Assembly: GCA_017559385.1 (NCBI GenBank)
Contig: JAFYSK010000024.1
Coordinates: forward strand, 1-35,794
Source of the DNA: Paludibacteraceae bacterium
Lineage (GTDB): Bacteria > Bacteroidota > Bacteroidia > Bacteroidales > Paludibacteraceae
Direction of reading: 5' to 3'
DNA: 35,794 nucleotides
Part shown: positions 2,832-21,963 of the stretch, piece by piece
Layout: the number at the start of each line of letters is the position of its first letter
Numbering within the stretch: position 1 is the first letter of the stretch
Made by a program: the position numbers and the translations under genes
Notes under the pieces: model-generated
Seen by the model: the letters and a program-made list of their open reading frames with translations, nothing else
Told to the model about the DNA's origin: nothing
Databases searched by the model: none

Positions 2832-2918
2832 ATCAATGAGTCTCTCAGGGCTTTAGCCCGGTCTCTCAGCCGAAGGCGGTCTGTCTTGTGAAAAGTTTTA
2901 AGAGTTTTAAAGGTAAAT

Positions 2919-3045
2919 TAGCTCCTACGCCTTCGGCGAGAAATCTTATTAATCTCTTATATCTGCGCTTGTGCCTCGCTTCTTTCCTAGTGCTCCGCAA
3001 TAGATTGCCACCGCTCCTGCGTATACTCGTCGCTGAATCTTAATT
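2919..3045 (+). repeat. Family B repeat, copy B1
   Basis: TAGCTCCT, hairpin GCCttcGGC, GAAATCTTAT, variable middle, CTCCGCAATAGATTGCCACC, CGCTCC, variable part, GCTGAATCTTAA. The inner GCAAT..ATTGC pairs where other copies have GTAAT..ATTAC, a compensatory change. Confidence 0.8.
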
Positions 3046-3079
3046 ACCATGCGGATGCATAAGTTTATAATGGTTCTAT

Positions 3080-3221
3080 TATCTCCTAGCCCTTCGGGCA
3101 GAAATCTTATTAATCCTATTTTATCTGCGCTATAGCATGCGCCTTTTCCATTGTACTCCGTAATAAATTACCACCTCTCCGCGTATCACCTCGAGTGATA
3201 CTTGTGCGATGAATCTTATTA
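3080..3221 (+). repeat. Family B repeat, copy B2
   Basis: CTCCT, hairpin GCCCttcGGGC, GAAATCTTAT, variable middle, CTCCGTAATAAATTACCACC, then a perfect 7-bp hairpin GTATCAC / GTGATAC (3183-3201), then TGAATCTTAT. Confidence 0.8.
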
Positions 3222-3283
3222 ATGCAGCGGTACACATTCTTTGTAGTGCTATACGATTGGCAGTCGATACTTGCTTTATTTGT

Positions 3284-3453
3284 TGAGATTCAGTGAGCTT
3301 TTATCGCGGAGCGATGATTAGTCATAGCGTAGCGTCATGACGCAAAAGCGAACGGTGGCAATCCATTTCGGAGAACCCTATAATCTTGCTTGCAAGGGAT
3401 CTTTAGCAAATAAGATTTATAAGATTTCTTGGCGCCTAGCGCCATAGGAGCTA
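3284..3453 (-). repeat. Family B repeat, copy B3 (leftward)
   Basis: Read leftward: TAGCTCCT, GGCGC-CTA-GCGCC palindrome, GAAATCTTATAAATCTTAT, a middle with CTTGCAAGCAAG (shared with B4), GGTTCTCCGAAAT, GATTGCCACCG, a long variable part including the palindrome GCGTCATGACGC (3332-3343), CACTGAATCTC. It lies about 85 nt downstream of a leftward promoter, so it is probably transcribed in this sense. Confidence 0.8.
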
Positions 3454-3542
3454 TATCCAATCACCTTATCACCTTATCGCCTATAACCGATATCCTATAG
3501 CCTATAGCCCGAAGGGCGGTCGCAACACAGCAATCTGAGGTG

Positions 3543-3573
3543 CAAAGGTACGATAAATTTGCGAAATGTGCAA
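3543..3573 (-). promoter_or_regulatory. Leftward promoter into the repeat island
   Basis: Leftward strand: TTG (3571-3573), 20 nt, TACCTTTG (3543-3550). A full match to the local consensus. The only gene downstream on this strand is the small lipoprotein, about 820 nt away. Confidence 0.75.
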
Positions 3574-3601
3574 GAAAATGGCAGAAAGTTTGTGGTAAAT
3601 C

Positions 3602-3632
3602 TTGCGTACTTCAAAAAAAAGTAGTACTTTTG
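3602..3632 (+). promoter_or_regulatory. Promoter for DUF5606 gene
   Basis: TTG (3602-3604), 20 nt, TACTTTTG (3625-3632). Predicted start about 3639, leaving a 20-nt leader to the ATG. Confidence 0.8.
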
Positions 3633-3658
3633 CCCCGAAATTAGAAAATCAAGACAAT

Positions 3659-4180
3659 ATGTTAAAGGATATTTTATCAATTACAGGCAAGCCAGGACTC
3701 TATAAATTGGTGAATCGTGGCAACAATATGTTGATCGTTGAATCATTGCTAGATGGCAAACGCATGCCTACCTACTCACGCGATAAAATCGTTTCACTAG
3801 GCGAGATATCTATGTACACCATGGGTGACGATATCGCACTCAGCGAAGTATTGACCAAACTAGGCGAGAAAGAAGGACTAAAAACTGCATCTATCGACCC
3901 TAAAAAAGCAGATAACGATCAATTGCGCGACTTCTTTGGTGAAGTACTACCTGACTTTGACCGCGACCGCGTATATCCAAGCGATATCCGCAAATTGATC
4001 CAATGGTATAATATCCTAATTGGCGCTGGTATTACCGATTTCACCGTAGAAGAGGGAGAAGAACTTGCCGTAGAAGAAGTAAAGCAAGAGGTGAAAAAAA
4101 CAGCTCCAAAGCAACAAGTTAAAACACAAAAAGCTGCCGCCACATCAGCTAGAACAGGCGTCGGCTCTAAAAAAGGTTGA
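3659..4180 (+). CDS. DUF5606 domain-containing protein
   Basis: 173 residues from the ATG at 3659 (MLKDILSITGKPGLYKL); the open frame extends upstream to 3602 but that part contains the promoter. The N-terminal ~130 residues look like the Bacteroidota-specific DUF5606 family, with the conserved opening and the SDIRKLIQWYNIL helix. The last ~35 residues are a Lys/Gln/Ala-rich, probably disordered tail. No enzyme motif is visible and the biochemical function is unknown. The stop (TGA) overlaps the TTG start of the Nif3-like gene, so the two are probably translationally coupled. Confidence 0.8.
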   Translation: MLKDILSITGKPGLYKLVNRGNNMLIVESLLDGKRMPTYSRDKIVSLGEISMYTMGDDIALSEVLTKLGEKEGLKTASIDPKKADNDQLRDFFGEVLPDFDRDRVYPSDIRKLIQWYNILIGAGITDFTVEEGEELAVEEVKQEVKKTAPKQQVKTQKAAATSARTGVGSKKG

Positions 4181-4950
4181 TCCTTCAGGATATCATCAAT
4201 ATCATAGAATCTGTAGCTCCCTTGAGTTACCAAGAAGATTGGGATAATTCGGGACTGCAGGTGGGTGATCGCAATGCAGAAGTACATGCAGCATTGTTGA
4301 CGGTAGATGTAACAGAATCTGTCGTCAATGAAGCTATTACTCTGGGTTGCGATTTGATTGTATCTCATCACCCACTACTGTTCCGCGGACTAAAACAAAT
4401 AACCGGTTCTACCCCACAAGAACGATGCGTGCTGAAAGCTATTCAACATGGTATAGCCATCTACTCAGCACACACATCCATGGACTGCTGGCTACACGGC
4501 GTCAGCGGCAAAATAGCCGATAAACTGGGCGTACAAAACTATCGCATCCTGGTGGAGAGCCAAGAGAATGTAGGTTTGGGCGTCATCGGTCAGCTACCAG
4601 AACCCATGAGCGTTGAGCAACTGGTGGCACATGTGGCACAAGTGTTTGGCATAACAGAAGGTTTGCGCTATGTGGTGGGTAAACAAGATAAGGTGCAGAA
4701 GATAGCCATCTGCGGCGGCGCAGGAGCCGACCTGGTAGAGGCGGCCATACAACAAGGAGCAGATGCCTATGTGTCGGCCGACTTTAAGTACCACGAACTG
4801 CAAGCTGCTAGCGGACAAATAACCGTGGTGGATATGGATCATTGGGTAAGCGAACACTACACCCGAGAGATATTTGAAGAACTGCTATCGGGACACATCA
4901 CAACGCATGTGGCAAAAACCGATATGAGTCCGGTAGAATACTGGGTATAG
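4177..4950 (+). CDS. Nif3-like dinuclear metal-centre protein
   Basis: 257 residues. The start is TTG at 4177: an in-frame stop sits at 4168-4170 and the next codons give the expected family start (ILQDIINIIESVAPLSYQEDWDNSGLQVG). Metal-ligand motifs are present: SHHPLLFRG, SAHTSMD, and C-terminal DMDHW-SEHYTREIFEEL. The length matches the short YbgI-like form, without the PII-like insertion found in many Gram-positive and some Bacteroidota members. Family role: toroidal hexamer with a di-metal site; physiological substrate unsettled (often named GTP cyclohydrolase 1 type 2 homolog). TTG initiation and the TTGA overlap with the upstream gene suggest coupled translation. Confidence 0.9.
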   Translation: MILQDIINIIESVAPLSYQEDWDNSGLQVGDRNAEVHAALLTVDVTESVVNEAITLGCDLIVSHHPLLFRGLKQITGSTPQERCVLKAIQHGIAIYSAHTSMDCWLHGVSGKIADKLGVQNYRILVESQENVGLGVIGQLPEPMSVEQLVAHVAQVFGITEGLRYVVGKQDKVQKIAICGGAGADLVEAAIQQGADAYVSADFKYHELQAASGQITVVDMDHWVSEHYTREIFEELLSGHITTHVAKTDMSPVEYWV

Positions 4951-5094
4951 GCGGGCCCTATGGGTTGTTTTAGTCGCAGCTAAAGCTGCTGTTTTAAAGG
5001 TAGGCTAGTTGGACTAGTAGTACTAGATGGGCTAGATACACTAGAACCTTTAAAACCCCTAAAACCTTTAAAACTTTTAAAACTTTATAAACAT
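4951..5094 (+). repeat. Family A leader repeat, copy A1
   Basis: Fills the spacer between the Nif3-like gene and the zinc-ribbon gene. It holds hairpin 1 CCC-TAT-GGG then TTGTTTTAG; hairpin 2 GCAGC-TAAA-GCTGC then TGTTTTAAAGGTA; a CTAG-rich linker; and five exact 9-mers (5048-5092) of the type CTTTAAAAC ending 2 nt before the ATG. The 71-bp core 4967-5037 is identical, in inverted orientation, to 7084-7154. Confidence 0.85.
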
Positions 5095-5847
5095 ATGGCA
5101 AAGAAAGAAGAACAAATCTTGAGCGTGGAAGATAAATTGCGCGCTTTGTATGAATTGCAAACTGTGGACACCAAGATCGATGAGTTGCGCATCTTGGCTG
5201 GTGAGTTGCCACAAGAAGTAAAAGACATGAGTGATGAGGTAGAAGGCCTCAAAACACGTCTTGTTAACATCGAGAACAACATCAAAGAGTGTGAAACCGG
5301 TATCTCAGAACACCGCGTACGCATCGAGAACGCTAACGCAGCTATCTCTCGCTACAAAGAGCAACAAAACAACGTACGCAACAACCGTGAGTACGACAAT
5401 CTCAGCAAAGAGATCGAGTACCAAGAGTTGGATATCGAAGCATCACAACGCAAGATTCGCAACTTCACTACCGAACTAGAGAACTACCAATCTGAAAAGA
5501 GCAAAACGATCACAGATATCGAAGATCGTACCGTAGATTTGAACCAAAAACGTAGCGAACTCGACGCCATCTTGTCAGAAACCAAAGAGCAAACCGAGAA
5601 GTTGATGCTTCGCGCTGCAGAATTGGAGAAACATATCGAGGATCGATTGGTAACCGCCTTCCACCGTATTCGTAAGAACGCACGCAACGGATTGGCAGTA
5701 GTGAAAGTAGAGCGCGATAGCTGCGGCGGTTGCCACAGCAAGATCCCAGCTCAACGCCAATTGGATATCCGTCTGCGCAAGAAAATCATCGTTTGCGAGT
5801 TGTGCGGACGCATCTTGGTTGACCAAGAGATTGATAGTAAGAAGTAG
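5095..5847 (+). CDS. Coiled-coil protein with C-terminal C4 zinc ribbon
   Basis: 250 residues. After a short N-terminal helix, residues ~30-190 are heptad-rich and charged, predicted long antiparallel coiled coil. The C-terminus has a zinc ribbon with CxxC pairs at about 210/213 (CGGC) and 234/237 (CELC). This is the layout of the DUF164 / CT398-CdsZ family, whose role is poorly defined (proposed links to export or sigma-54 in chlamydiae). It follows the Nif3-like gene, a pairing I recall as common in Bacteroidota. The family A nonamer array directly precedes the ATG. Confidence 0.85.
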   Translation: MAKKEEQILSVEDKLRALYELQTVDTKIDELRILAGELPQEVKDMSDEVEGLKTRLVNIENNIKECETGISEHRVRIENANAAISRYKEQQNNVRNNREYDNLSKEIEYQELDIEASQRKIRNFTTELENYQSEKSKTITDIEDRTVDLNQKRSELDAILSETKEQTEKLMLRAAELEKHIEDRLVTAFHRIRKNARNGLAVVKVERDSCGGCHSKIPAQRQLDIRLRKKIIVCELCGRILVDQEIDSKK

Positions 5848-5921
5848 TGGGCAGCGGAGCTGCTAGTTTAGGGGACGCGCCAGAGGCGCTACTGTTTAGG
5901 GTTTAGTGGAGAGGAGGAGTC

Positions 5922-6065
5922 ATAGCTCCTACTCGCTGCGCTCGAGAAATCTTATAAATCTTATTTACAAGGTTCACTTGCAAGCAAGGCTATAAGGTTC
6001 TCCGAAATAAATTACCACCGCTCCACATTTTGGGAACATCCAAAATGTGACCGCTGAATCTTAAC
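5922..6065 (+). repeat. Family B repeat, copy B4
   Basis: TAGCTCCTA, hairpin CTCG...CGAG, GAAATCTTATAAATCTTAT, a middle with CTTGCAAGCAAG, CTCCGAAATAAATTACCACC, CGCTC, then a perfect 10-bp hairpin CACATTTTGG / CCAAAATGTG (6024-6049, 6-nt loop), then GCTGAATCTTAA. Confidence 0.85.
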
Positions 6066-6236
6066 TGCAACGACTCGCCAAAGAGAGAGAGGGACTATAG
6101 CCGAACTAGGAGAACTAGCCGGACTAGTGGGCGAGAGGAGGCGAGGAGGCAAAGAAACAACTCCTGAACTCCTGAACTTCTGAACATTCGCTAGCGAATA
6201 ATCGTTCGAACGAAGTGAGATAAGAACTTCTGAAAC

Positions 6237-6270
6237 AAAAAAGCAGCACCCGAGAGGTGCTGCTTTTCTT
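6237..6270. terminator. Bidirectional terminator between zinc-ribbon gene and plsC
   Basis: Stem GCAGCACC / GGTGCTGC (6243-6263) with loop CGAGA; A-run on the left and T-run on the right. It ends the leftward plsC transcript and could stop rightward transcription too. Confidence 0.85.
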
Positions 6271-6294
6271 GTATAGGATTGCGCGTAGTAACAC

Positions 6295-7005
6295 TTATTT
6301 GAGACCCTTCTCTACCTGCTCACGCATATACGTCATCGCCTCGTTGATATCAGCAAACTGAGACAAATCAATAGGCTCACCTATATGCAAAGATGTATGG
6401 GCACCTGGGTTAACAAAAAGCTGCTTAGCAGGCATAGCCTGGTGGAAACCCTTGAGTGTGATAGGTACTACAGGAAGATTCAAGTCAACCGCAATCTTAA
6501 ACGCACCCTGCTTAAAACGACCAATCTCACCCGTCTTGGTGCGAGTTCCCTCTGGGAAAATAACCGTAGAGATACCATCTACCAACTCGGCCTTGATATG
6601 ATCCATGCTCTGGAGAGCTGCACGAGGATTACTACGATCAACGAAGATATGACCAGCCACCTTGCATGCCGTACCAACAAAAGGCACCTTGCGTATCTCC
6701 TTCTTCATCAACCACTTGAAGTTGTTAGGCAACCAACCATAAACAGCAAAAGCGTCCAAGAAAGACTGGTGGTTGGATACAAAAACATAGGACTGCTTAG
6801 GATCGACATGCTCACGACCCGTTACCTTGATAGGCACAAGCAAGAACCACAACACGGATCTAGCCCAAAGCACTTGGATCGTACGAGGCGCCTTGCCATT
6901 CTTCCAAGGAAAACACAAGATAGTGAAGACAGCCGTGAAAATAGTGGCTACAATAACCAACGGAAAACCTATCAGATATTGATAAAGGATGTAAAGAGGT
7001 TTCAT
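6295..7005 (-). CDS. plsC: 1-acyl-sn-glycerol-3-phosphate acyltransferase
   Basis: 236 residues. N-terminal membrane helices (LIGFPLVIVATIFTAVFTILCF) precede the acyltransferase motifs: NHQSFLD (the NHx4D catalytic box), the substrate-binding FPEGTR, and a following VVPITLKG region. The enzyme converts lysophosphatidic acid to phosphatidic acid at the inner membrane in phospholipid synthesis. It lies downstream of the leftward kinase gene with family A copy A2 between, so it may be read from that transcript or from a promoter in the leader that I cannot identify. Ends at a strong hairpin terminator. Confidence 0.92.
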   Translation of the reverse strand: MKPLYILYQYLIGFPLVIVATIFTAVFTILCFPWKNGKAPRTIQVLWARSVLWFLLVPIKVTGREHVDPKQSYVFVSNHQSFLDAFAVYGWLPNNFKWLMKKEIRKVPFVGTACKVAGHIFVDRSNPRAALQSMDHIKAELVDGISTVIFPEGTRTKTGEIGRFKQGAFKIAVDLNLPVVPITLKGFHQAMPAKQLFVNPGAHTSLHIGEPIDLSQFADINEAMTYMREQVEKGLK

Positions 7006-7173
7006 GTTTGTTATACAGTTTTAAGAGTTTTAGGCGACAAGGTCGCGTTTTAAAAGTTTTAAGAGTTTTAAAAGTTTTAAAGGATCTAGCCCATCTAGTA
7101 CTACTAGTCCAACTAGCCTACCTTTAAAACAGCAGCTTTAGCTGCGACTAAAACAGCCCGAAGGGCGATCGCA
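7006..7173 (-). repeat. Family A leader repeat, copy A2 (leftward)
   Basis: Read leftward from the kinase stop: hairpin 1 GCCC-TTC-GGGC then TGTTTTAG; hairpin 2 GCAGC-TAAA-GCTGC then TGTTTTAAAGGTA; CTAG-rich linker (core 7084-7154, identical to A1); four abutting 9-mers (7048-7083; GTTTTAAAA type on the plus strand); an extra hairpin GCGAC-aag-GTCGC (7034-7046); more 9-mers; then the plsC ATG. Confidence 0.85.
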
Positions 7174-8172
7174 TTAGAACTTAAGCTTATGCATAAAGCC
7201 ACGATAGAGTGCACAGATGCGTCGGATCTCATCCCAGGTCTCATCAGGGAGTTTGGTACCAACGATTTCGACAATACGTCCCGCAGCAATCGTACCAATC
7301 TCACCGCAGCGGCGCAAGTCGAATCCATCGGATAGAGCATGCAAGAATCCACCAGCATACAAGTCGCCTGCACCGGTAGAGTCGAGGCAGGATGAAGTGA
7401 TGGCGCCGATATGGTGCAACTGAGCACCCTGACGAACATAGGATCCACGTTTGCCCACCTTGACAACCGCTATATCACACTGTTGAGCAATATTCTCAAC
7501 GGCCTCTTCAGGATTGAGATGCGTATAAGCAAAAGACTCGTCCTCGTTGGCAAATACAATATCTACATATTTATATATAAGGTCTTTGAGGAATTGATGA
7601 TTCTCGTTGACCACATTATAGCTAGCCAGGTCCAAGGATACGGTACATCCCTGCTCCTTGGCTGTACGCAGGGCCGTTTCGATCAGATTGTGGTCTTGCA
7701 CCAGGTAGCCCTCGACATGACAGATATCGTATCCAATGAATATCTCCTTGGTGATATCTTCAGCTCGCATATCCGCCGCAGCACCCAAATAGGTACAAAA
7801 AGTACGTTCTCCATCAGGTGTGATAAGCACAATACAGCAACCAGACATCAGGGAGGAAGTTAAAAGTTGGGGCTGAACATTATTCTTGAGCAGATCCTCG
7901 TGATAGAATCGTCCGACTTCGTCGTTACCAATCTTACCGATGAAGGCAGCTTTGCCACCAAGTTGAGCCACCGTGGCTACCGTATTAGAAGCACTACCAC
8001 CAGCCACCATTTTTTTACGTACAGAAGCAAACTTGTTCTGAAGTTGTTCAAATTGCTCCGCATTGATGAGATTCATGCTTCCCTTAGGGAACCCAATCTC
8101 TCGGAGGTCACCTTCAGAGATTTGGAGCAAGATATCAGTCAAAGCATTGCCTAAACCTAAAATTTTCTTCAT
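7174..8172 (-). CDS. PfkB-family sugar/nucleoside kinase, probable adenosine kinase
   Basis: 332 residues. The N-terminus GLGNALTDILLQI and the GGSASNTVATVAQLGG glycine-rich segment are typical of the PfkB N-terminal signature. The C-terminal signature is DSTGAGDLYAGGFLHAL, with the catalytic Asp in TGAGD. The family phosphorylates sugars or nucleosides with ATP. Bacteroidota members of this length are usually annotated as adenosine kinase, but the substrate cannot be read from sequence alone. A leftward TATCTTTG promoter element lies at 8231-8238; no good upstream TTG box is spaced correctly. plsC follows after the A2 repeat. Confidence 0.85.
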   Translation of the reverse strand: MKKILGLGNALTDILLQISEGDLREIGFPKGSMNLINAEQFEQLQNKFASVRKKMVAGGSASNTVATVAQLGGKAAFIGKIGNDEVGRFYHEDLLKNNVQPQLLTSSLMSGCCIVLITPDGERTFCTYLGAAADMRAEDITKEIFIGYDICHVEGYLVQDHNLIETALRTAKEQGCTVSLDLASYNVVNENHQFLKDLIYKYVDIVFANEDESFAYTHLNPEEAVENIAQQCDIAVVKVGKRGSYVRQGAQLHHIGAITSSCLDSTGAGDLYAGGFLHALSDGFDLRRCGEIGTIAAGRIVEIVGTKLPDETWDEIRRICALYRGFMHKLKF

Positions 8173-8230
8173 TTGTATGTGTTTTTGTGGATAATTAGTA
8201 CGTTTTGGGGTTAAAAATCAAAAATTTTTG

Positions 8231-8238
8231 CAAAGATA
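8231..8238 (-). promoter_or_regulatory. Candidate -7 element for the PfkB kinase gene
   Basis: Leftward TATCTTTG matches TAnnTTTG; the position 20 nt upstream reads AAG rather than TTG, so only half of the promoter is supported. Confidence 0.5.
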
Positions 8239-8259
8239 GTAATTTTTTTTCAAAAAAAC

Positions 8260-8290
8260 TTGCTCATATCAAAAAAAAGCAGTACTTTTG
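8260..8290 (+). promoter_or_regulatory. Promoter for tRNA-Asn
   Basis: TTG (8260-8262), 20 nt, TACTTTTG (8283-8290), 46 nt before the mature tRNA 5' end. Confidence 0.8.
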
Positions 8291-8335
8291 CACCCGCAAT
8301 CGAAAAACAAGGGTTTTCGTTTGCAAAAAAATAAT

Positions 8336-8409
8336 GCTTCCTTAGCTCAGTCGGTTAGAGCATCTGACTGTTAATCAGGGGGTCCAAGGTTCAAGTCCTT
8401 GAGGGAGCG
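8336..8409 (+). tRNA. tRNA-Asn (anticodon GTT)
   Basis: 74 nt folding as a cloverleaf: acceptor GCTTCCT / AGGGAGC (one T-G pair) with discriminator G; D stem GCTC/GAGC; anticodon stem TCTGA/TCAGG with loop CTGTTAA; T stem CAAGG/CCTTG with loop TTCAAGT. The anticodon GTT reads AAC/AAU. The 3' CCA is not encoded. Own promoter and own terminator, so a monocistronic tRNA gene. Confidence 0.95.
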
Positions 8410-8412
8410 CAG

Positions 8413-8446
8413 GTGTGATAGTCAAAATGCTATCACACTTTTTTTT
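8413..8446 (+). terminator. Terminator after tRNA-Asn
   Basis: Nine-bp stem GTGTGATAG / CTATCACAC with an 8-nt loop followed by eight T. Confidence 0.9.
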
Positions 8447-8466
8447 GTAAAAAAAAATATAAGGTA

Positions 8467-8497
8467 TTGGAAATATCAAAAAAAAGTTGTACCTTTG
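8467..8497 (+). promoter_or_regulatory. Promoter of the mreB operon
   Basis: TTG (8467-8469), 20 nt, TACCTTTG (8490-8497). Predicted leader of about 105 nt to the mreB ATG at 8611; no regulatory fold recognised in it. Confidence 0.8.
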
Positions 8498-8610
8498 CGC
8501 GATTTTATAGTATATAATGCACAAAACTTACAATATAAAATAAGTTTAACCCGAAATCCTTAACTATGGGTTAGCAAATACATGTTTAACAAGCTTAATT
8601 ATTGACAAGA

Positions 8611-9630: not shown

Positions 9631-10458
9631 ATGCGAAATCTATTAGATTTTCTACTACGCTATAACAACTTCCTAATATTCACGATATTGGAAGTTGTTG
9701 CGTTTATACTGATAGGCAATACCCATGAATATCAGCAGAGCACTATGTGGACTAGTGCCAATCGAATAGTGGCCGGTAGCAACAACATGAAGGCCTCGAT
9801 ATCAGAGTATCTATCCTTGCGCGAAGATAATTTGGCATTGATTGAAGAAAATGCCAAATTGCAAACTCAGATCATGGAGCTGAAGAACCTGCAAGAGCCT
9901 GCCAACGAACGCAAAAGCGAGTATGTGTATAGTCATCTGGCATGGAAATACACACCCGCCAAAGTGATTGATATCAGCACGAACAAACAACATAACTACC
10001 TGACTATCAACAAAGGATCACGCGATGGAATAGAGAAAGATATGGGTGTGATAAGTGCCAATGGACTGGTGGGTATAGTGAGTTCGGTAGCCGAGCAATA
10101 CGCATTGGTAGTACCATTGATTCATACGGATATCAGTATCAGTTCTCGCATAAAGAGCAACGGACAAATAGGTGGTACCCAATGGAATGGACGGGACTAT
10201 ACCACCGTCAACCTGACGCATATCTCCAGACACATCAGCGTGAATGTAGGAGACACGATTGTTAGTAGCGGCCTAACTCCAGTATTCCCAGAAGGAATAC
10301 CTATTGGTGTGGTGGAGAAAACAACGCTGAAGAAAACATCAGACTACCACACCACGAAAGTGAAACTATGCACAGACTACCGATCGCTGAAATATGTGCA
10401 AGTGCTGCACAATAAGAACAAAAAACACCACGACAATATATACTATGGAATGGATTAA
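9631..10458 (+). CDS. mreC: Rod shape-determining protein MreC
   Basis: 275 residues, ATG directly after the mreB stop. One N-terminal membrane segment (NFLIFTILEVVAFILIG), then a coiled-coil helix (about residues 55-90, LREDNLALIEENAKLQTQI), then the beta-barrel periplasmic domain including GIVSSVAEQYALVVPL and GDTIVSSGLTPVFPEGIPIG. MreC is the periplasmic scaffold that activates PBP2-RodA. Confidence 0.95.
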   Translation: MRNLLDFLLRYNNFLIFTILEVVAFILIGNTHEYQQSTMWTSANRIVAGSNNMKASISEYLSLREDNLALIEENAKLQTQIMELKNLQEPANERKSEYVYSHLAWKYTPAKVIDISTNKQHNYLTINKGSRDGIEKDMGVISANGLVGIVSSVAEQYALVVPLIHTDISISSRIKSNGQIGGTQWNGRDYTTVNLTHISRHISVNVGDTIVSSGLTPVFPEGIPIGVVEKTTLKKTSDYHTTKVKLCTDYRSLKYVQVLHNKNKKHHDNIYYGMD

Positions 10459-10933: not shown

Positions 10934-10937
10934 GAGA

Positions 10938-12767: not shown

Positions 12768-12769
12768 GC

Positions 12770-14230: not shown

Positions 14231-14237
14231 TCAGGAT

Positions 14238-14687: not shown

Positions 14688-14699
14688 AGTATTGATTAT

Positions 14700-16574
14700 A
14701 TGGAATTTAAATACGATATTATTGTTGTAGGTGCAGGACATGCTGGTTGTGAAGCAGCCAGTGCTGCTGCTCGTATGGGTAGCAAGACATTGCTCATCAC
14801 GATGGATATGAATAAGATCGGTCAGATGAGTTGTAATCCTGCTGTAGGAGGAATTGCTAAAGGTCAGATAGTCAGGGAGGTAGATGCTATGGGTGGACAG
14901 ATGGGTATTGTGACTGATAGGAGCGCTATCCAGTTTCGTATGCTGAATCGTAGCAAGGGTCCTGCCATGTGGAGTCCGCGTAGTCAGAGCGATAGAAAAT
15001 GCTTTATAGAAGAGTGGGTAAAGATACTGACAACGATGCCCAACCTAGATATTTGGCAAGATACAGTGATGGAGTTGTTGATCAAGGATGGCCAAGTGCA
15101 CGGAGTAAAGACATTGTTGGGTGTAGAGATGCAAGCAAAGGCTGTGATTTTGACCAATGGAACATTCCTGAATGGCTTGTTACATTTTGGTAAAACGCAA
15201 ATAGAAGGCGGTAGAATAGCCGAGCCTAGTAGTTTTGGTATAACCGAACAACTGCGTGAACTAGGTTTTGCCACAGATAGAATGAAGACGGGTACGCCAG
15301 CGCGTGTGGACAAGAGAAGTATAGATTTCGCACAAATGACAGAGCAATTAGGCGACAATGATAATCATCAGTTCTCGTATTTAGACACAGTAAAGCGCGA
15401 ACTGAAGCAGATGAGTTGTTGGATCACCTACACGAATGAGCAGACGCATGATGTATTGCGTAGCGGATTGGCAGATTCGCCATTATACAATGGACAGATT
15501 CAGAGTATAGGTCCAAGATATTGTCCTAGTATAGAGACGAAGATTGTGACTTTTGCGGATAAGGACATGCACCAACTGTTCTTGGAACCAGAGGGAGTGG
15601 ATTCGAATGAGTACTATATCAACGGATTTTCCTCTTCCCTACCCTGGCAAATCCAATGGCAAGCCTTGAAGACAGTGAAGGGTTTAGAGAACATAGTTCT
15701 CTACCGTCCAGGATATGCAATAGAATACGACTTTTTTGACCCTACTCAGCTGTTGCATACATTGGAGACCAAGAAGGTGAAGAATCTCTTCTTTGCGGGT
15801 CAGATTAATGGTACAACGGGATATGAAGAAGCAGCTGGCCAAGGACTGGTGGCGGGTGTGAATGCCCACCAAAACATCACAGGAGGAGCGCCATTTACCT
15901 TGGCACGCGACGAGAGCTATATAGGTGTGTTGATTGATGATTTGGTGAATAAGGGCGTGGATGAGCCATACCGAATGTTTACCTCAAGAGCAGAATATCG
16001 CATCTTGCTTCGCCAAGATAATGCGGATGCTCGACTGACAGAGAGAAGTTATGAGATGGGGTTGGCAGATGATTACCGCATGAACTTGCTCAAGAACAAA
16101 CAAGCGGGCGAGCAAGCCTTAACAGAGATGCTGCGCACCACTTCGGTTAAGGCAAAGGACATCAACGGATATCTAAACCAAATGGGCTATGGCGACTTGC
16201 AGCAGACCTGCAAATTGATTGATATTGTAGCTCGTCCGAATGTAACGATTATGGGATTGGCCGAAACATTGCCAGAGTTGAGAGAGCAGATAGAAGCACT
16301 AGGGGCCAGAAAAGAGGAGATAGTGGAGAGTACGGAGATTAATATCAAATACAAGGGATATATCGAACGAGAGAAACTAGCTGCAGACAAGCTGCACCGA
16401 CTGGACAATATCCGATTGCCAAAGGATTTTGACTATAACAGCGTGCAATCATTAAGTACAGAAGCCAGACAAAAACTCAGTAAAATACAACCCTCTACGA
16501 TAGGTGAAGCAAGTAGAATACCTGGCGTAAGCCCTAATGATGTAAGCGTATTGCTGGTGCTGATGGGGAGATAA
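14700..16574 (+). CDS. mnmG: MnmG (GidA), tRNA wobble-uridine modification enzyme
   Basis: 624 residues. N-terminal FAD dinucleotide fold VGAGHAGCEAASAAARMG, then SCNPAVGGIAKG, the GTFLNGL region and the C-terminal helical domain ending in IPGVSPNDVSVLLVL. With MnmE it adds the carboxymethylaminomethyl group at C5 of U34 in several tRNAs. The gene is often near the chromosome origin, which fits the parS site just downstream. Confidence 0.97.
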   Translation: MEFKYDIIVVGAGHAGCEAASAAARMGSKTLLITMDMNKIGQMSCNPAVGGIAKGQIVREVDAMGGQMGIVTDRSAIQFRMLNRSKGPAMWSPRSQSDRKCFIEEWVKILTTMPNLDIWQDTVMELLIKDGQVHGVKTLLGVEMQAKAVILTNGTFLNGLLHFGKTQIEGGRIAEPSSFGITEQLRELGFATDRMKTGTPARVDKRSIDFAQMTEQLGDNDNHQFSYLDTVKRELKQMSCWITYTNEQTHDVLRSGLADSPLYNGQIQSIGPRYCPSIETKIVTFADKDMHQLFLEPEGVDSNEYYINGFSSSLPWQIQWQALKTVKGLENIVLYRPGYAIEYDFFDPTQLLHTLETKKVKNLFFAGQINGTTGYEEAAGQGLVAGVNAHQNITGGAPFTLARDESYIGVLIDDLVNKGVDEPYRMFTSRAEYRILLRQDNADARLTERSYEMGLADDYRMNLLKNKQAGEQALTEMLRTTSVKAKDINGYLNQMGYGDLQQTCKLIDIVARPNVTIMGLAETLPELREQIEALGARKEEIVESTEINIKYKGYIEREKLAADKLHRLDNIRLPKDFDYNSVQSLSTEARQKLSKIQPSTIGEASRIPGVSPNDVSVLLVLMGR

Positions 16575-16594
16575 TGGTTTCGTGTTTAGTAAAT

Positions 16595-16610
16595 TGTTTC
16601 ACGTGGAACA
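16595..16610. promoter_or_regulatory. parS, ParB/Spo0J binding site
   Basis: TGTTTCACGTGGAACA; its reverse complement TGTTCCACGTGAAACA matches the bacterial parS consensus TGTTNCACGTGAAACA at all 16 positions. It lies in the 68-bp spacer between mnmG and apt. parS sites recruit ParB for origin segregation and cluster around oriC. parA and parB are not in this window. Confidence 0.85.
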
Positions 16611-16642
16611 TTCGCAGAAAAAATAAAATCATATAAAAAACA

Positions 16643-17167
16643 ATGAAGCAAGAAGAAGTGCTCGCGGCGATTCGCGACGTAAAAGACTTTCCTGTACCAG
16701 GAATCATTTTTAAGGATATTACTACTGTGTTGAGTAATCCAGAGTATCTGAAATGGATGAAAGATGAGATTGTAAATCTGTACAGAGCTTATGGAATTAC
16801 CAAGGTAGTAGGTATAGAATCTAGAGGATTTATCTTAGGTCCAGCAGTAGCTATGGATTTGGGTGCAGGTTTTGTGCCTGTTCGCAAACCAGGTAAACTG
16901 CCAGCAGAGACCATAGAAGTAAGTTATGCAAAAGAGTATGGTATAGATACGATTCAGATACACGCTGACGCATTGAATGAGAATGACGTAGTGCTTTTGC
17001 ATGATGACTTGTTGGCTACAGGAGGATCAATGGCTGCTGCATTAGAGCTAGTAAGAAAGTTCAATGTAAAGAAGGTGTATATCAACTTTATTATTGAGTT
17101 GGAATTCTTGAACGGCAGAAAAACTATTGGCGACGATGTAGAGATTAGCAGCTTGATGAGTTGCTAA
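16643..17167 (+). CDS. apt: Adenine phosphoribosyltransferase
   Basis: 174 residues. Family start FPVPGIIFKDITTVL, GIESRGFILGPAVA, the flexible-loop RKPGKLPAETIEVSY, and the PRPP-binding motif VVLLHDDLLATGGSM. Converts adenine and PRPP to AMP and PPi in purine salvage. The leader contains the parS site. Confidence 0.96.
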   Translation: MKQEEVLAAIRDVKDFPVPGIIFKDITTVLSNPEYLKWMKDEIVNLYRAYGITKVVGIESRGFILGPAVAMDLGAGFVPVRKPGKLPAETIEVSYAKEYGIDTIQIHADALNENDVVLLHDDLLATGGSMAAALELVRKFNVKKVYINFIIELEFLNGRKTIGDDVEISSLMSC

Positions 17168-17266
17168 GAAAGGAAAAAAGAACTAAGAACAAGGAGCAAA
17201 GACAAATTAGTAGTGGTGAAAATAAACGCTGCTGATTTGTGATTTGCTCCGATTTTATCGGAAGGC

Positions 17267-19084
17267 ATGTCTAAAAATCCGCATATACAGGAGATACTTC
17301 GTCGGTTGCCAGAAGAGCCGGGGGTGTACCAATACTTCAACGAAGTAGGGGAAGTGATATATGTGGGTAAGGCAAAGAACCTGAAACGTCGGGTTAGTAG
17401 TTACTTTCATAAGGAGCAGGATCGGTATAAGACCAAACTGCTTGTTCAGAGCATAGCGGATATCAAATATATCGTAGTAAAAAGCGAACAAGACGCATTT
17501 TTGCTAGAGAACAACCTAATCAAGCAATACCAACCTCACTATAATATTTTGCTAAAGGACGGCAAGAGTTATCCGAGTATTTGTATTACGAGAGAGGAAT
17601 ATCCTAGGATATTTAAGACTAGGAAGATCATTAAGGGCATAGGAGATTACTATGGTCCTTATACTTTTGGCTATACACTGGACTTGGTTTTGGAGTTAAT
17701 ACATAAGCTCTACCCTATTCGCACATGCGCAATGCAGATGAATAAAAGTAGCGTTGAAATGGGGAAATATCGTGTGTGTTTGAAGTATCATCTGGGTAAC
17801 TGCTGTGGTATATGCGAGGGTAAAGTAAGCCGAGAGAAGTATTTGGAATATATAGAATCGGCTCGTAAGATCATCAAGGGTGATGCGCAAGAGATCAGCA
17901 AGCAGATAGAGGCAGAAATGATGAAAGCGGCTCTGGGGATGCGTTATGAAGAGGCGGGGCGAGTGAAAGAAAAGCTCGAATTGATCGAGCAATTCAAGAG
18001 TAAAACGGTGATTACGAACTCGCATGCAGGCGATGTGGATGTATTCGGATACGATGAAATGGGCCAAAATGTGTATATCAGTATGCTGCATGTGCATAAC
18101 GGAAGTATTGTACAGGGGCAGACGATTGAGTATAAGAAGCAGCTAGACGAGACTAGAGAAGAGATTTTGGCGATGGGTATTTACGAATTACGCGAGCAAT
18201 TGGGAAGTACAACCAAGGAGGTAATTGTTCCGTTTATTCCGGAGATAATTGATGAAAATTTGCAAGTGAATATCGCTTTGGGAGGTGATAAAAAGAAGCT
18301 GCTGGATCTAGCGATGCAGAATGTGCAGCAGTACAAGAAAGACCGGATTAAACAGGATGATAAGCTGAATCCTGACCAACGAGCTGCGCGTATCCTGGGT
18401 GGACTGCAAAGTTTGTTGGGTCTGCCTACCCTGCCGATGTGGATAGATAGTTTTGATAACTCGAACACACAAGGTAGCAATGCGGTGGCAGGTTGTGTGG
18501 TATTTAAGAAAGCACGCGCGTGCAAGAGCGAGTATAAGAAATATGAGATCAAGACGGTAGTTGGTCCAGATGACTATGCGAGTATGCGTGAGGTAGTCAG
18601 GAGACGATATACTAGATTAGTGGAAGAGGGCAGTGCCCTACCCGACCTGATTATTGCCGACGGTGGACTGGGTCAGATGGGTGCTATTCGTGAGGTAGTG
18701 GAAGGAGAGTTAGGTTTGCAAATTCCGATAGCGGGATTGAAGAAAGATAACAAGCATAGGACGAATACCCTACTCTATGGTGAGCCCGCTAAGGAGTTTG
18801 GCATGAAAGTGACGGACGAGATCTTCCGTCTGATGGTGGAGATACAGGATGAGGTGCACAGATTTGCTATCAGTTACCATAAAAAGAAGCGAAGTAAGGC
18901 TCAAACAAAGAGCGAACTAGATGATATTCAGGGAGTTGGCTCAATTACAAAGCAAAAGATACTGCAACGCTTTGGCTCCGTGGCGCGTGCTAGAAGCGCG
19001 AAATTGGAAGAATGGATTGATTTGCTCGGAACTCGCTCAGGGACAAAGATTTACGAGCATTTTAATGGCAAAATAACGCCCTGA
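17267..19084 (+). CDS. uvrC: UvrABC system protein C
   Basis: 605 residues. GIY-YIG nuclease domain at the N-terminus (GVYQYF...IYVGKAKNLKRRVSSYF), cysteine-containing segment with CLKYHLGNCCGICEG, a UVR helix (about 200-240), the RNase H-like C-terminal nuclease (VAGCVVF, LIIADGGLGQMGA) and a terminal helix-hairpin-helix (LDDIQGVGSITKQKILQRFG). Makes the dual incisions in nucleotide excision repair. The 99-nt spacer after apt holds purine-rich AAGAACAAG-type repeats and a short CCGATtttATCGG hairpin just before the ATG. Confidence 0.96.
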   Translation: MSKNPHIQEILRRLPEEPGVYQYFNEVGEVIYVGKAKNLKRRVSSYFHKEQDRYKTKLLVQSIADIKYIVVKSEQDAFLLENNLIKQYQPHYNILLKDGKSYPSICITREEYPRIFKTRKIIKGIGDYYGPYTFGYTLDLVLELIHKLYPIRTCAMQMNKSSVEMGKYRVCLKYHLGNCCGICEGKVSREKYLEYIESARKIIKGDAQEISKQIEAEMMKAALGMRYEEAGRVKEKLELIEQFKSKTVITNSHAGDVDVFGYDEMGQNVYISMLHVHNGSIVQGQTIEYKKQLDETREEILAMGIYELREQLGSTTKEVIVPFIPEIIDENLQVNIALGGDKKKLLDLAMQNVQQYKKDRIKQDDKLNPDQRAARILGGLQSLLGLPTLPMWIDSFDNSNTQGSNAVAGCVVFKKARACKSEYKKYEIKTVVGPDDYASMREVVRRRYTRLVEEGSALPDLIIADGGLGQMGAIREVVEGELGLQIPIAGLKKDNKHRTNTLLYGEPAKEFGMKVTDEIFRLMVEIQDEVHRFAISYHKKKRSKAQTKSELDDIQGVGSITKQKILQRFGSVARARSAKLEEWIDLLGTRSGTKIYEHFNGKITP

Positions 19085-19390
19085 GAATTGAATATTTTTG
19101 ATGAGCGTGGAACAAGATACAGGCAAAATGATGTGTTTTAGAGGAAAATTTTGCTCCTACTCGCTACGCTCGAGAAATCTAAATAAATCTTATTGCAACG
19201 ACTCTGATTTTATTGCTACCGCTCCTTCGCTTTCGCTCCGTGCGCTGAATCTTAAGTAAATCTAGCGGTAAACGATAAAGTAAAAAAATTACAGTCGTTT
19301 GTAATATTTTCTTTTTCTCATTTGTCTAATGGGTGTAGTCGCAAAGAAGCGACAGAAAACGATTTGTTAAACTTATTAAATTTTAGTATT
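19085..19390. other. Intergenic region downstream of uvrC
   Basis: 306 bp without a gene. Holds family B copy B5 and a small hairpin GTCGC-aaagaa-GCGAC at about 19338-19353. No clear terminator for uvrC and no full promoter consensus for the next gene were found. Confidence 0.7.
19151..19255 (+). repeat. Family B repeat, copy B5 (shortest)
   Basis: GCTCCTA, hairpin CTCG...CGAG, GAAATCTAAATAAATCTTAT, a short degenerate middle lacking the CTCCG box, ATTGCTACCGCTCC, a CGCTTTCG-rich variable part, GCTGAATCTTAA. Confidence 0.75.
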
Positions 19391-19852
19391 ATGTACGCAA
19401 CCATTATTGATGAATTAGTGCCCCTATTTGGAATGTTGTTACTTTTTGGTGGAATACCTGCAATTATTTTGACAGGTGTGATTATGTATCTCAAAAACCG
19501 CCGTCACAAAGTGGAGGAACATAGCAAACTCATCTCTCAAATGATTGAGAAGAGTGAAGGTGCAAACATTGACTTCAAGGCTATGGCTGAGATGTTGAAT
19601 GAGACGGACAGCAAAAAGAAGACCACCAAGATGGCAGTCTTGAAACACTTGGAGTATGGTGCACTTTGCTCATTGGTAGGATTGTTTGTACTCCTTTATG
19701 GCTTGTTCATCAACCCAATTAACAAGGCTGTAGTCATCGGAGGTTTGCTGCTGACTATTGGTGTGGCATTCTTAGTGATGTTCTTTGTGTCAAAGAATTA
19801 TCTCAAGAAGGAGATTGAGAAAGAGGAAAAAGAACTTGCAGAAAAAGAATAA
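19391..19852 (+). CDS. DUF6249-like membrane protein
   Basis: 153 residues from the ATG at 19391; upstream in-frame codons lie in a hairpin leader and do not look coding. One N-terminal membrane segment (LFGMLLLFGGIPAIILTGVIMYL), a charged cytoplasmic stretch, two C-terminal hydrophobic segments (LEYGALCSLVGLFVLLYGLF and VVIGGLLLTIGVAFLVMFF), then a Lys/Glu-rich tail. The layout and the following ECF sigma gene fit the DUF6249 group of Bacteroidota. Function unknown. Confidence 0.75.
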   Translation: MYATIIDELVPLFGMLLLFGGIPAIILTGVIMYLKNRRHKVEEHSKLISQMIEKSEGANIDFKAMAEMLNETDSKKKTTKMAVLKHLEYGALCSLVGLFVLLYGLFINPINKAVVIGGLLLTIGVAFLVMFFVSKNYLKKEIEKEEKELAEKE

Positions 19853-19873
19853 ACTGCGTTTATCTGACTTTCT

Positions 19874-19956
19874 ATTAAAGACAATTATTGTCAATTCAGG
19901 ATATCTTTTGTTTAGGTTAGAGGAATGCGCTAGCGCATTGGTAACCCAAACAAAAT
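19874..19956 (+). repeat. Family C hairpin element, copy C1
   Basis: TTAAAGACAATTATTGTC (palindromic core), AATTCAGG, then a long hairpin: lower stem TTTTGTTTAGGTTA (19906-19919) / TAACCCAAACAAAA (19942-19955) with one mismatch, and an apical 16-bp perfect palindrome AATGCGCTAGCGCATT (19924-19939). Located 42 nt before the ECF sigma ATG. A second copy precedes tsaE. Confidence 0.85.
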
Positions 19957-19997
19957 GAAGAATTTTCGAGATTAGATCACTTGTTTTTCATAAATTA

Positions 19998-20492
19998 ATG
20001 GATAAGCAGCAGTTTATTTCCGCCATTGGCGGCTTGCAGGAATCCCTTAGGCGGTTCCTGCTTGTGCTGACTCATGGTGATGAAGAACTGGCAAACGATC
20101 TGGCACAGGAAGCGATAGTGAAAGCTTATTTGCATTGTGCTACTTTTGAAGAGAAATCGGCTTTGCAGACATGGGTGTTTCGCATTGCCTACAACGAATA
20201 CCTAAACGAACAGAATAAGTACTGGAATACCCATCGTGTGGCAGTAGAGAACTATGAAAGCGTTGATACGGAAGTAGCCACCGAACAGCCAGATGCGGCA
20301 TTTCGCTATGAGCCACTATATCAGGCTATTAACCAGCTACCAAAGCAAGAGAAAGCCGTGGTGATACTGTATTATCTGGAAGAAAAAAGCATTCGAGAGA
20401 TTAGCAAGATCACTGAAATATCAGAGGGCAGTGTTGCGGTGATGCTGTTTAGAGCCAGGAAGAAGCTGAAAGCTATTTTGAGTAAAGAATAA
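19998..20492 (+). CDS. ECF-type RNA polymerase sigma factor
   Basis: 164 residues. Sigma region 2 (DEELANDLAQEAIVKAYLH, then ALQTWVFRIAYNEYLNEQNK) and region 4 (LPKQEKAVVILYYLEEKSIREISKITEISEGSVAVMLFRARKKL) are both clear. No N- or C-terminal extension. Directs RNA polymerase to an alternative regulon. Flanked by a DUF6249-like membrane gene upstream and a small membrane-protein gene downstream, the latter being a candidate anti-sigma or accessory factor. A long hairpin (C1) sits in its leader. Confidence 0.93.
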   Translation: MDKQQFISAIGGLQESLRRFLLVLTHGDEELANDLAQEAIVKAYLHCATFEEKSALQTWVFRIAYNEYLNEQNKYWNTHRVAVENYESVDTEVATEQPDAAFRYEPLYQAINQLPKQEKAVVILYYLEEKSIREISKITEISEGSVAVMLFRARKKLKAILSKE

Positions 20493-20521
20493 GGAACAAG
20501 GAACCAAGAACAAAGACTAAA

Positions 20522-20818
20522 ATGATGCTAACAATAAAAACCAAGATAAGTAAGCGTTTGCGTGCGAGTGCTCCGCAAGTAAAAGATAATGAAGCGTTTA
20601 TGGCGGATACGATTCGTCAGATTGATCTTATGCCATCGCCTAGTAGTGAGTTGCAAGAGAGTTTGCGAAGATATACGATGATGGAGCGATTGGCCATGCG
20701 AATGGATGGTGCTCGTTGGTTGCTGGTTGGCGGTGCTGGTAGTGTGGCTGTTGGATATGCTGTTTTTAGCCATTTAGAGGCGATCTTGGGTGCTATTTCG
20801 GCGTTGATGGTGGTATAA
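20522..20818 (+). CDS. Small membrane protein, possible sigma-factor partner
   Basis: 98 residues (ATG at 20522 or 20525). A soluble basic N-terminal half (about 1-65) and a hydrophobic C-terminal half (WLLVGGAGSVAVGYAVFSHL and AILGAISALMVV). No recognised domain. Its position 29 nt after an ECF sigma gene suggests an anti-sigma-like or accessory role, but no anti-sigma motif is visible. The spacer holds GGAACCAAGAACAAAGAC, similar to the spacer before uvrC. Confidence 0.65.
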   Translation: MMLTIKTKISKRLRASAPQVKDNEAFMADTIRQIDLMPSPSSELQESLRRYTMMERLAMRMDGARWLLVGGAGSVAVGYAVFSHLEAILGAISALMVV

Positions 20819-20846
20819 GTTACTGCCATAAAAGGTGATTTGATGA

Positions 20847-20880
20847 TAAAAAAATGCACTCGAATTGAGTGCATTTTTAT
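20847..20880. terminator. Bidirectional terminator
   Basis: Stem ATGCACTC / GAGTGCAT (20854-20874) with loop GAATT, A-run on the left and T-run on the right, between convergent genes. Confidence 0.88.
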
Positions 20881-20900
20881 TTTACTAAACCTATTTAAAA

Positions 20901-21425
20901 TTAGAAGCAATAGCGAACGCTAGCTGCCAAGTGCCAATCGAATTGATTAAGGAGTAGCTCCATTGGTACATTGATCGACATGGCATAACCAGGACGGAAA
21001 TCTAGTCCAAAAGCAAGAGGTAGATTGTCCATCTTATACCCTACCCCAGCAAAGGCATTAATACCAAACTTACCCAAGGTAGCAGGATTGACTGTATGAA
21101 GGGTTTGCATCAAACCAGCGCTTACACCACCACCGAGCTCGGCATAAATTCCATATTTTAAATCCATATGGTACAAGAAGTTAGGATTGAGGATGAAATC
21201 AAAGATGTCAGCTTGAAGTGGGATATAATCACCATCTCCTATAATACCGAGTTGAGTACTTTGGAAACCAACTGCTAGATCCGCTTGAATAGCAAAATTT
21301 TTGGTCATGTGCTGCTTGTAACTCAAGCCATTGAGTCCACCTACAACGAGACCAATCTCATGGTTTTGTGCCATACTTGCTGTCGCAAAAATTAGTGCAA
21401 CAAGGCTAAAAAATAATTTTTTCAT
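20901..21425 (-). CDS. Outer-membrane beta-barrel protein
   Basis: 174 residues. Signal peptide MKKLFFSLVALIFATASMAQ, then alternating hydrophobic strands with Gly/aromatic pattern and a C-terminal aromatic residue (DWHLAASVRYCF), typical of an eight-stranded OmpX-like barrel. The ligand or role is unknown. Has a consensus leftward promoter (21514-21544) and ends at a bidirectional terminator. Confidence 0.8.
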   Translation of the reverse strand: MKKLFFSLVALIFATASMAQNHEIGLVVGGLNGLSYKQHMTKNFAIQADLAVGFQSTQLGIIGDGDYIPLQADIFDFILNPNFLYHMDLKYGIYAELGGGVSAGLMQTLHTVNPATLGKFGINAFAGVGYKMDNLPLAFGLDFRPGYAMSINVPMELLLNQFDWHLAASVRYCF

Positions 21426-21513
21426 GATTTGTAATTCTGTTGTGCCTACTCTTCTTAGGATTTTCGGCTTACTCCGTTATTATGATAGAATTGATAGTTC
21501 TCTAATTCGAGTG

Positions 21514-21544
21514 CAAAGTTACAACATTTTTTTGACATGTGCAA
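21514..21544 (-). promoter_or_regulatory. Promoter for the beta-barrel gene
   Basis: Leftward TTG (21542-21544), 20 nt, TAACTTTG (21514-21521). Predicted leader about 80 nt. Confidence 0.8.
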
Positions 21545-21564
21545 TTTTTTTTACAAGAATTTTA

Positions 21565-21574
21565 CCCCCCCCCC
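21565..21574. repeat. C10 homopolymer tract
   Basis: Ten consecutive C on the plus strand, 20 bp upstream of the beta-barrel promoter, where slippage could alter upstream DNA geometry. Confidence 0.85.
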
Positions 21575-21682
21575 ATATTCTTTCTAACCAACTGATTTAT
21601 AGGTAGTTGCGTTTTGCGTTTTTTTACTATTAAAATAGGGAATATCATTACTAATTTGTTTGGTAAATATATACTTATCTAA

Positions 21683-21725
21683 CGTATATCTATCGTGTAT
21701 CTACCGTATATGTACCGTAATTGAT
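21683..21725. repeat. 11-bp tandem repeats, helically phased
   Basis: CGTATATCTAT, CGTGTATCTAC, CGTATATGTAC and a degenerate fourth CGTAATTGAT. The 11-bp spacing puts each copy on the same face of the helix, as in a multi-site operator. Sits 60-100 bp upstream of the GNAT promoter. Confidence 0.75.
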
Positions 21726-21784
21726 AGCGAGAGAGAGTAGGGGAGAATAGGTCGGGAAGAAATAGGAAAGAGGATAGATTGGAT

Positions 21785-21815
21785 TTGCAAATATCAGGAA
21801 AAAGTAGTAATTTTG
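21785..21815 (+). promoter_or_regulatory. Promoter for the GNAT gene
   Basis: TTG (21785-21787), 20 nt, TAATTTTG (21808-21815). Predicted start about 21822, so the whole of B6 would be in a leader of roughly 195 nt. Confidence 0.8.
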
Positions 21816-21831
21816 TGCGGGGAATAGGGAT

Positions 21832-21963
21832 TTAGCTCCTTGCGCCTAGCGCAGAAATCTTATAAATCTTATTTTCCACGCATACACCTCGTTTTTTCAG
21901 GCACTCCGTGATAAATTACCACCATTCCTTCCGCCGTTCCGTGCTCAGTCATTGAATCTTAGG
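21832..21963 (+). repeat. Family B repeat, copy B6 (within GNAT leader)
   Basis: TTAGCTCCT, palindrome TGCGC-CTA-GCGCA, GAAATCTTATAAATCTTAT, variable middle, CTCCGTGATAAATTACCACC (G-T wobble keeps the inner hairpin), variable part, TTGAATCTTAG. Confidence 0.85.

Follow-up and report, generated by a model that had tools for sequence, protein, structure and literature searches.

Family B, a dispersed family of folded intergenic repeats in Paludibacteraceae, and its association with a GxxExxY gene

A contig of 35,794 nt from a Paludibacteraceae bacterium (JAFYSK010000024.1, taken at full length and called the window below; it is C29 among the 70 contigs of a 2.0 Mb assembly that is ~85% complete) carries six copies of a structured intergenic sequence, family B, and the question it raises is what kind of element these copies belong to and how they came to be dispersed. 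A first-pass annotation, made from the letters alone, did not recognise the family and put forward two possibilities, an RNA that folds or DNA mobility based on hairpins. We found that family B is a real, structured, dispersed repeat family and that it is linked by position and by phylogeny to one clade of GxxExxY genes (TIGR04256/PF13366); inverted family B units flank a gene of this clade at two loci. In the interpretation to which we give somewhat better than an even chance, the copies are dispersed, mostly non-autonomous repeats, comparable to the repetitive extragenic palindromic (REP) sequences or to the miniature inverted-repeat transposable elements (MITEs), of a GxxExxY element whose mobility and enzyme action we infer.

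Copies and folding of the family B units

All six copies were present in the window with the order of blocks described in the first-pass annotation, the ends of which were accurate to within a few bases. The unit is ~105–170 nt long (104–164 nt within an alignment of 36 copies) and starts with TA(G/T)CTCCT, hairpin P1, GAAATCTTATNAATCTTAT and a variable middle, continuing with NN C-TCC-G NN A(T/C)NNATTNCCACC, NNTCC, hairpin P2 and NNTGAATCTTA. Judging by this layout, it looks like two cassettes, each composed of CTCC, a hairpin and GAATCTTAT. Direct inspection also showed that hairpin and middle modules reappear in varied combinations across the copies.

The 19-base box GAAATCTTATAAATCTTAT, sought with up to two mismatches, has 39 matches in the genome (23 forward and 16 reverse), while the reversed uncomplemented control has none. 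The sequence-only model R1, built from 36 units and applied to its own assembly at E ≤0.01, detected 49 copies, part of them partial, so the family to which the six window copies belong is large. Of the 49, 34 form 17 convergent pairs (neighbours less than 300 bp apart), against three direct and no divergent (head-to-head) arrangements. Beyond this assembly, a first search at E 0.001, the filters of which miss weak matches, found the family in 3 of 61 genomes (its own included; 37 belong to the genus). A pattern scan of 84,980 species genomes yielded 27 stretches in nine named metagenome-assembled genomes (MAGs), mainly of ruminant-gut Paludibacteraceae; R1 counted 30, 7, 3, 1, 35, 1 and 12 copies in seven of these MAGs and 0, 1, 2 and 0 in four additional genomes of the genus. 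The matches in RGIG7354 (labelled Alistipes, one), SIG114 (one) and RGIG7234 (labelled Bacteroidaceae, three) may lie on contaminating contigs and were kept out of the host-range evidence. At the settings used, no units were found in viral contigs by the pattern scan or in plasmid or phage records with a single unit as the query.

The base pairing was assessed on distinct strings, so that identical ones contribute a single count. At the closing position of the TCC loop, 54 of 56 distinct loops have a Watson–Crick pair (A-T in 24, T-A in 19 and G-C in 11), compared to a shuffled mean of 19.7, and the second pair outward is Watson–Crick in 54 of 56 as well (shuffled mean 46.9). The two pairs at the P2 foot, which occurs as GC/GC, AT/AT, GT/AC or TC/GA, hold in 71 and 72 of 76 strings (shuffled means 58.9 and 58.4). 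None of 2000 shuffles reached the observed value for any of these four pairs. No pairing shows at position 3 of box 3, nor at the second and third positions in the P2 foot. The folding energies agree with this picture: the mean over 60 distinct P1 strings is −5.53 kcal/mol versus −3.40 for arm-swapped chimeras and −2.24 for dinucleotide shuffles, and over 76 distinct P2 strings −7.31 versus −4.45 and −4.34, respectively, with 0 of 200 chimera sets reaching the observed mean in either case. False matches of the regular expression (two strings for P1, one for P2) had been removed beforehand; for P2, two or more nested false matches were retained, which biases the P2 result against our reading.

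The statement of the first-pass annotation that the first hairpin is always self-complementary thus holds as regards the pairing of P1, whereas "always" is too strong: hairpins of the CTCGC-NNN-GCTC type form just four pairs, or have their stem interrupted by an internal TC/CT loop, and for a small number of P1 strings folding is weak or absent. The compensatory change from GTAA/TTAC to GCAA/TTGC, suggested for the box-3 stem, had to be abandoned, as only 18 of 50 are Watson–Crick there (shuffled mean 15.9; 539 of 2000 shuffles reach the observed count); what covaries in box 3 in the same test is the closing pair of C-TCC-G (Watson–Crick in 49 of 50 against a shuffled mean of 18.0, with none of 2000 shuffles reaching this count). 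Consensus folding of the 36-copy alignment by RNAalifold predicted zero pairs, which we attribute to the failure of hairpins of unequal length to align. Of seven units folded singly, three or four clearly exceeded the stability of shuffles, which the remainder did not. The asymmetry between G.T and A.C mismatches was uninformative on the choice between RNA and DNA folding. Taken together, the 49 matches to R1 and the pairing support for P1, P2 and the TCC loop support the suggestion that the family is structured and present in the genome in many copies. No Rfam family matches the units at the gathering threshold; with lax filters the best hit in window 2880–3500 reached 14.8 bits (E 6.3), and none was obtained on eight loci with copies bearing the long module described below.

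The strong covariation of short stems next to conserved single-strand boxes would also be compatible with an RNA of regulatory or structural function, or a signal for the end of transcription, repeated by happenstance. We consider this very unlikely because the window copies sit between convergent, codirectional and divergent gene pairs; the distribution is patchy (3 of 37 genomes of the genus in the first search), Rfam offers no match, and in G069 one unit lies in frame within a 636-codon open reading frame (ORF), in a glycosyltransferase-like part where the stretch varies in length among relatives. A different explanation of the pairing would be mutational: the hairpins might stay palindromic by template switching at quasi-palindromes and not by selection on the fold. 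The free variation of the hairpin sequences and the similar short palindromes in nearby non-unit sequence (e.g., window 2735–2885) speak for it. Nevertheless, the closing pair of the fixed TCC loop and the two pairs of the P2 foot covary with unpaired or variable stretches separating them from the apex, and we consider this explanation very unlikely as well.

A GxxExxY gene between inverted units

At the purM–purH junction of four genomes (G014, G065, G067 and G070), a convergent pair of units encloses an ORF of the GxxExxY family. The transporter locus of G065 is organised likewise (unit, GxxExxY gene, inverted unit), and in the orthologous transporter locus of G000 the stop codon of a related GxxExxY ORF overlaps a unit head. 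Here purM was named from matches of neighbouring ORFs to Pfam AIRS, whereas the assignments of purH, of the transporter gene and of the glycosyltransferase mentioned above were made by eye. When 46 GxxExxY loci were scanned with R1 (the weak locus L276 was excluded and several loci are truncated at contig ends), six had a unit within ~60 bp, five of them on both sides, and 40 had none within 100 bp, the single unit at L215 being ~850 bp off. The six unit-adjacent proteins form a single clade with support of 97/96 in a tree of 43 proteins, from which four of the initial 47 were excluded as too short; an earlier tree of 22 proteins grouped five unit-adjacent proteins at 89/90. In G070 there are two R1 matches in total and both flank the cognate GxxExxY gene.

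The GxxExxY ORF of G014 encodes 133 residues and matches TIGR04256 with 138.7 bits (cut-off 35), and PF13366 is above its cut-off for all six unit-adjacent ORFs. The best match by sequence in the PDB has an E-value of 0.69. Residues D67, E77 and K79 are invariant across 20 aligned GxxExxY proteins, and this suggests that the cognate protein is a nuclease-like protein of the PD-(D/E)XK type; the Q...Y motif of the family presumably resembles that of RecB/Cas4 nucleases. The 120 scanned ORFs neighbouring the units gave 115 Pfam families, of which 25 were listed; DUF5675 and PDDEXK_3 are the joint commonest with four occurrences each.

Other GxxExxY clades also possess inverted flanks. The clade of L208, L209 and L215 has flanks different from the family B units, and model R2, built from eight arms of these flanks, had matches in nine genomes (26, 21, 15, 15, 15, 14, 11, 4 and 2, the weaker ones being partial) and in none of three others. 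A second GxxExxY clade therefore has its own dispersed repeat. On a wider scale, 420 control windows gave a 95% quantile that the inverted flanks exceed in 30 of 41 GxxExxY loci and in 25 of 35 without the six unit-linked ones; related loci were counted separately here, a 42nd locus was not scorable, and the contrast is possibly overstated, the controls being evenly spaced and often genic. In plasmid records, three of eight GxxExxY loci rank at the top of 111 controls (Gemmatirosa with a score of 113 and Bacteroides finegoldii with 45, reached by 0 controls, and Bernardetia with 36, reached by two) and the other five are unremarkable. The genes at L308:2983–3411 (Sphingomonas parapaucimobilis, with fabD and fabG on either side) and L309:2989–3363 (after radA in B. 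finegoldii) are colinear with their neighbours, which suggests insertion into operons. A CACGGAT repeat is present in the inverted flanks of the GxxExxY gene L216; it is related to the CACGGATTATCACGGATG-type repeats, which abut several G000 unit heads just upstream (L031, L035 and L041).

Possible mobility and exchange, and competing explanations

A unit pair in G000 contig C57 is 92% identical to a pair at an unrelated site in G025, at the same time as the orthologous genes compared between these two species are ~76–78% identical. This difference, and the position of the units, which bound a GxxExxY element at both ends in inverted orientation, lend support to mobility, one of the two possibilities raised by the first-pass annotation. 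A regulatory RNA is less likely in view of the varied gene contexts of the window copies. The purM–purH element of G014 is 95–100% identical to that of G065 and 93–100% to that of G067, compared to 80–91% and 81–95%, respectively, to the left of it; to the right, the first windows show 91–97% and most later ones 82–91%. In G070, one unit arm is 87–91% identical to the others and the rest of the element 91–99%. This pattern fits a late spread or exchange of the element, or possibly stronger constraint on it. At the RGIG906 site orthologous to the copy at window 19152 (flanks 89–91% identical), boxes and flanks are retained while P1, the middle and P2 differ and a long module is present. The unit at window 21833, on the other hand, is almost unaltered at its orthologous RGIG906 site. 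One C40 site carries a pair in G000 and a solo unit in G061. In G061, the two flanks of the G000 pair at C5 18908–19336 are found at separate places of C40 (13542 and 24966) and are inverted relative to each other, as if the pair marked the breakpoint of an inversion.

Constant boxes and flanks around changed modules at the RGIG906 site could result from a homing-like process, in which sites that are empty or of variant sequence are cut by a GxxExxY nuclease and then receive a copy of the element by recombination, so that the family spreads by gene conversion and not transposition. The 95–97% identity between G014 and G065 just to the right of the purM–purH element, with 82–91% beyond, may represent co-conversion. 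To the left, however, the identity of the same two genomes falls at once to 80%, and the copies occupy many unrelated intergenic sites, for which allelic homing is insufficient. We therefore judge this explanation distinctly improbable.

The course of events that we prefer for family B, that of repeats belonging to a GxxExxY element, would be as follows. The unit folds into hairpins P1 and P2 plus the small TCC-loop stem, and a complete, presumably autonomous element would consist of a unit, the GxxExxY gene and an inverted unit. Gene-less convergent pairs, similar to MITEs or REPINs, and solo units would derive from it. The PD-(D/E)XK-type protein may recognise the folded ends, either as single-strand hairpins or as an extruded cruciform, and then cut, and the copies may spread through single-strand insertion or break repair. 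Hairpin modules would be swapped by recombination between copies.

A number of observations weigh against this scheme. The shuffles used for the covariation counts leave the kinship among copies in place. Neither a target duplication nor an empty site that could be called clean was seen at the sites compared, which are diverged, rearranged or occupied: at the G014 site corresponding to window 5923 there is an intergenic stretch without a unit, too diverged for its ends to be placed, and the G000 C5 and C40 sites are rearranged or have a solo unit in G061. The cognate gene of G000 has four units on one side and none on the other, and 11 of the 41 GxxExxY loci have inverted flanks not above the controls. 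Strand transfer is not explained by a nuclease alone; of 124 neighbouring ORFs, 120 were scanned, and the 25 families listed out of the 115 from Pfam include no transposase, with no genome-wide search for Y1 or DDE enzymes made. Finally, the cognate gene is present in only five of 12 unit-bearing genomes (G000, G014, G065, G067 and G070), these being draft MAGs; the draft MAG G025 has 22 units and zero GxxExxY genes, and G061, also a draft, has 30 units, two non-cognate GxxExxY genes and no cognate one.

The absence of the cognate gene from the other seven genomes would be easier to understand if the units were REP- or MITE-like sequences moved by an unseen transposase (e.g., Y1 of the IS200/IS605 kind), with GxxExxY as cargo or a passenger, and the convergent hairpin doublets look like REPINs as described in PMC3116915. 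This alternative is nevertheless unlikely in our opinion. At two loci a GxxExxY gene is enclosed by units, and the genes linked in this way form one exclusive clade; G070 has no copies beyond the two flanking its GxxExxY gene; other GxxExxY clades have inverted flanks, and one of them has its own dispersed repeat. The lack of a transposase in the partial Pfam list given above also argues, in part, against it.

Window copies, related systems and implications

The window copies comprise one convergent pair and four further units (Table 1). In the copy at 19152, the CTCCG box is replaced by CTCTGATTTTATTGCTACC.

Table 1. Family B units in the window and the sequence between the paired ones.
Feature	Position	Strand	Arrangement	Anatomy	R1 match
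Unit	2919–3042	+	Direct orientation with neighbour at 3080, solo	P1 CGCC-TTC-GGCG; TCC-loop box 2993–3012	64.5 bits
Unit	3080–3218	+	Left half of convergent pair	P1 GCCC-TTC-GGGC; P2 base TC/GA; box 3 3156–3175	80.1 bits
Pair centre	3219–3283		Between both tails of convergent pair 3080/3284		
Unit	3284–3453	−	Right half of convergent pair	Enlarged P2; box 3 3354–3373	51.8 bits over 3337–3452
Unit	5923–6063	+	Solo	P1 arms 5932–5935 and 5943–5946; AAATCTTAT box 5946–5964; box 3 6000–6019; P2 and tail 6020–6063	88 bits
Unit	19152–19255	+	Solo	Divergent box 3	42.5 bits
Unit	21833–21961	+	Solo	Box 3 21904–21923	70 bits

In some units a long hairpin-rich module (...CTTGCAACAAAGAACTCGCTCTGCTCGTTGAGGTTGCC...) takes the place of the left P2 part (L114:470–600, L097, L098, L115, L133, L033, L041 and L047). 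These units are spread over several genomes, and the module may be a separate nested element. Unit heads frequently adjoin TTTTAAGAGTTTTAAAGGTG sequence, and at L113:4458–4880 an ORF of the 23S_rRNA_IVP type (four-helix bundle) is located ~290 bp from a unit head. A second dispersed repeat (TTTTAAAGGT / GTTTTAAGAG, with a AAAGCAGC end) occupies window 4955–5083, 7047–7166 and 35134–35230; its inverted copies of 120 nt, 91% complementary, surround an acyltransferase region. The window also contains an Rfam DUF805b motif (21443–21477, minus strand, 43 bits) upstream of the leftward ORF 20901–21425, and tandem coding-type repeats of 69 nt and 108 nt at 1–1421 and 1566–2412, the second of which encodes a Sel1-repeat protein.

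Family B resembles a REP/RAYT or MITE system but is not REP. REPINs and REPtrons with their RAYT, as described in PMC3116915 and PMC3733652, share with family B the extragenic hairpin repeats, the inverted doublets, the compensatory changes and the presence of copies beside a dedicated gene, the clades of which are matched to repeat classes. Family B likewise has hairpin repeats in inverted doublets (34 of 49 copies paired, pairing supported). The REP units of these sources measure 20–40 bp, in contrast to ~105–170 nt and three stems in family B; the GTAG/CGTC tag at the foot of the REP hairpin is absent from the 36-copy alignment, where the foot is CTCCT ... GAAATC; and RAYT is a Y1 transposase, whereas the gene linked to family B is a GxxExxY gene of the PD-(D/E)XK type. 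The TIRtrons of PMC3733652 share the arrangement in which long inverted repeats enclose a gene and are themselves members of a dispersed family, but their gene (TIRYT) is a tyrosine transposase and not GxxExxY.

MITEs are short non-coding convergent repeats resembling the ends of an autonomous element, to which the inverted units on both sides of GxxExxY at 5 of 46 loci correspond; their terminal repeats are near-identical, in contrast to the family B ends, which are folded units differing between copies. The in-frame unit of G069 is a single case similar to the Rickettsia palindromic elements. MITEs of Porphyromonas gingivalis are treated in PMC5771137. In the literature searched, outside which lie most subscription papers and all preprints, GxxExxY, the name of a genome-annotation family, is rarely mentioned, and four repeat strings matched only unrelated papers; the passage of PMC8934634 that mentions GxxExxY is unrelated to repeats.

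From this point of view, we advance a broader proposal, which we rate as somewhat short of an even chance: GxxExxY proteins may be the dedicated enzymes of a widespread class of elements, mobile or homing, that have folded ends and occur in several bacterial phyla, a separate dispersed repeat family belonging to each clade. Such a system would parallel RAYT/REP with a PD-(D/E)XK nuclease as its enzyme. If so, GxxExxY elements may explain some so far unexplained intergenic repeats of Bacteroidota and other bacteria, including the CACGGAT and CACAGAG/GCAGAGG types beside some GxxExxY genes, and repeat-spreading enzymes of the REP kind would have arisen from at least two unrelated folds. The link between a GxxExxY clade and a repeat family gives these proteins a testable function and provides a possible origin for orphan intergenic repeats.

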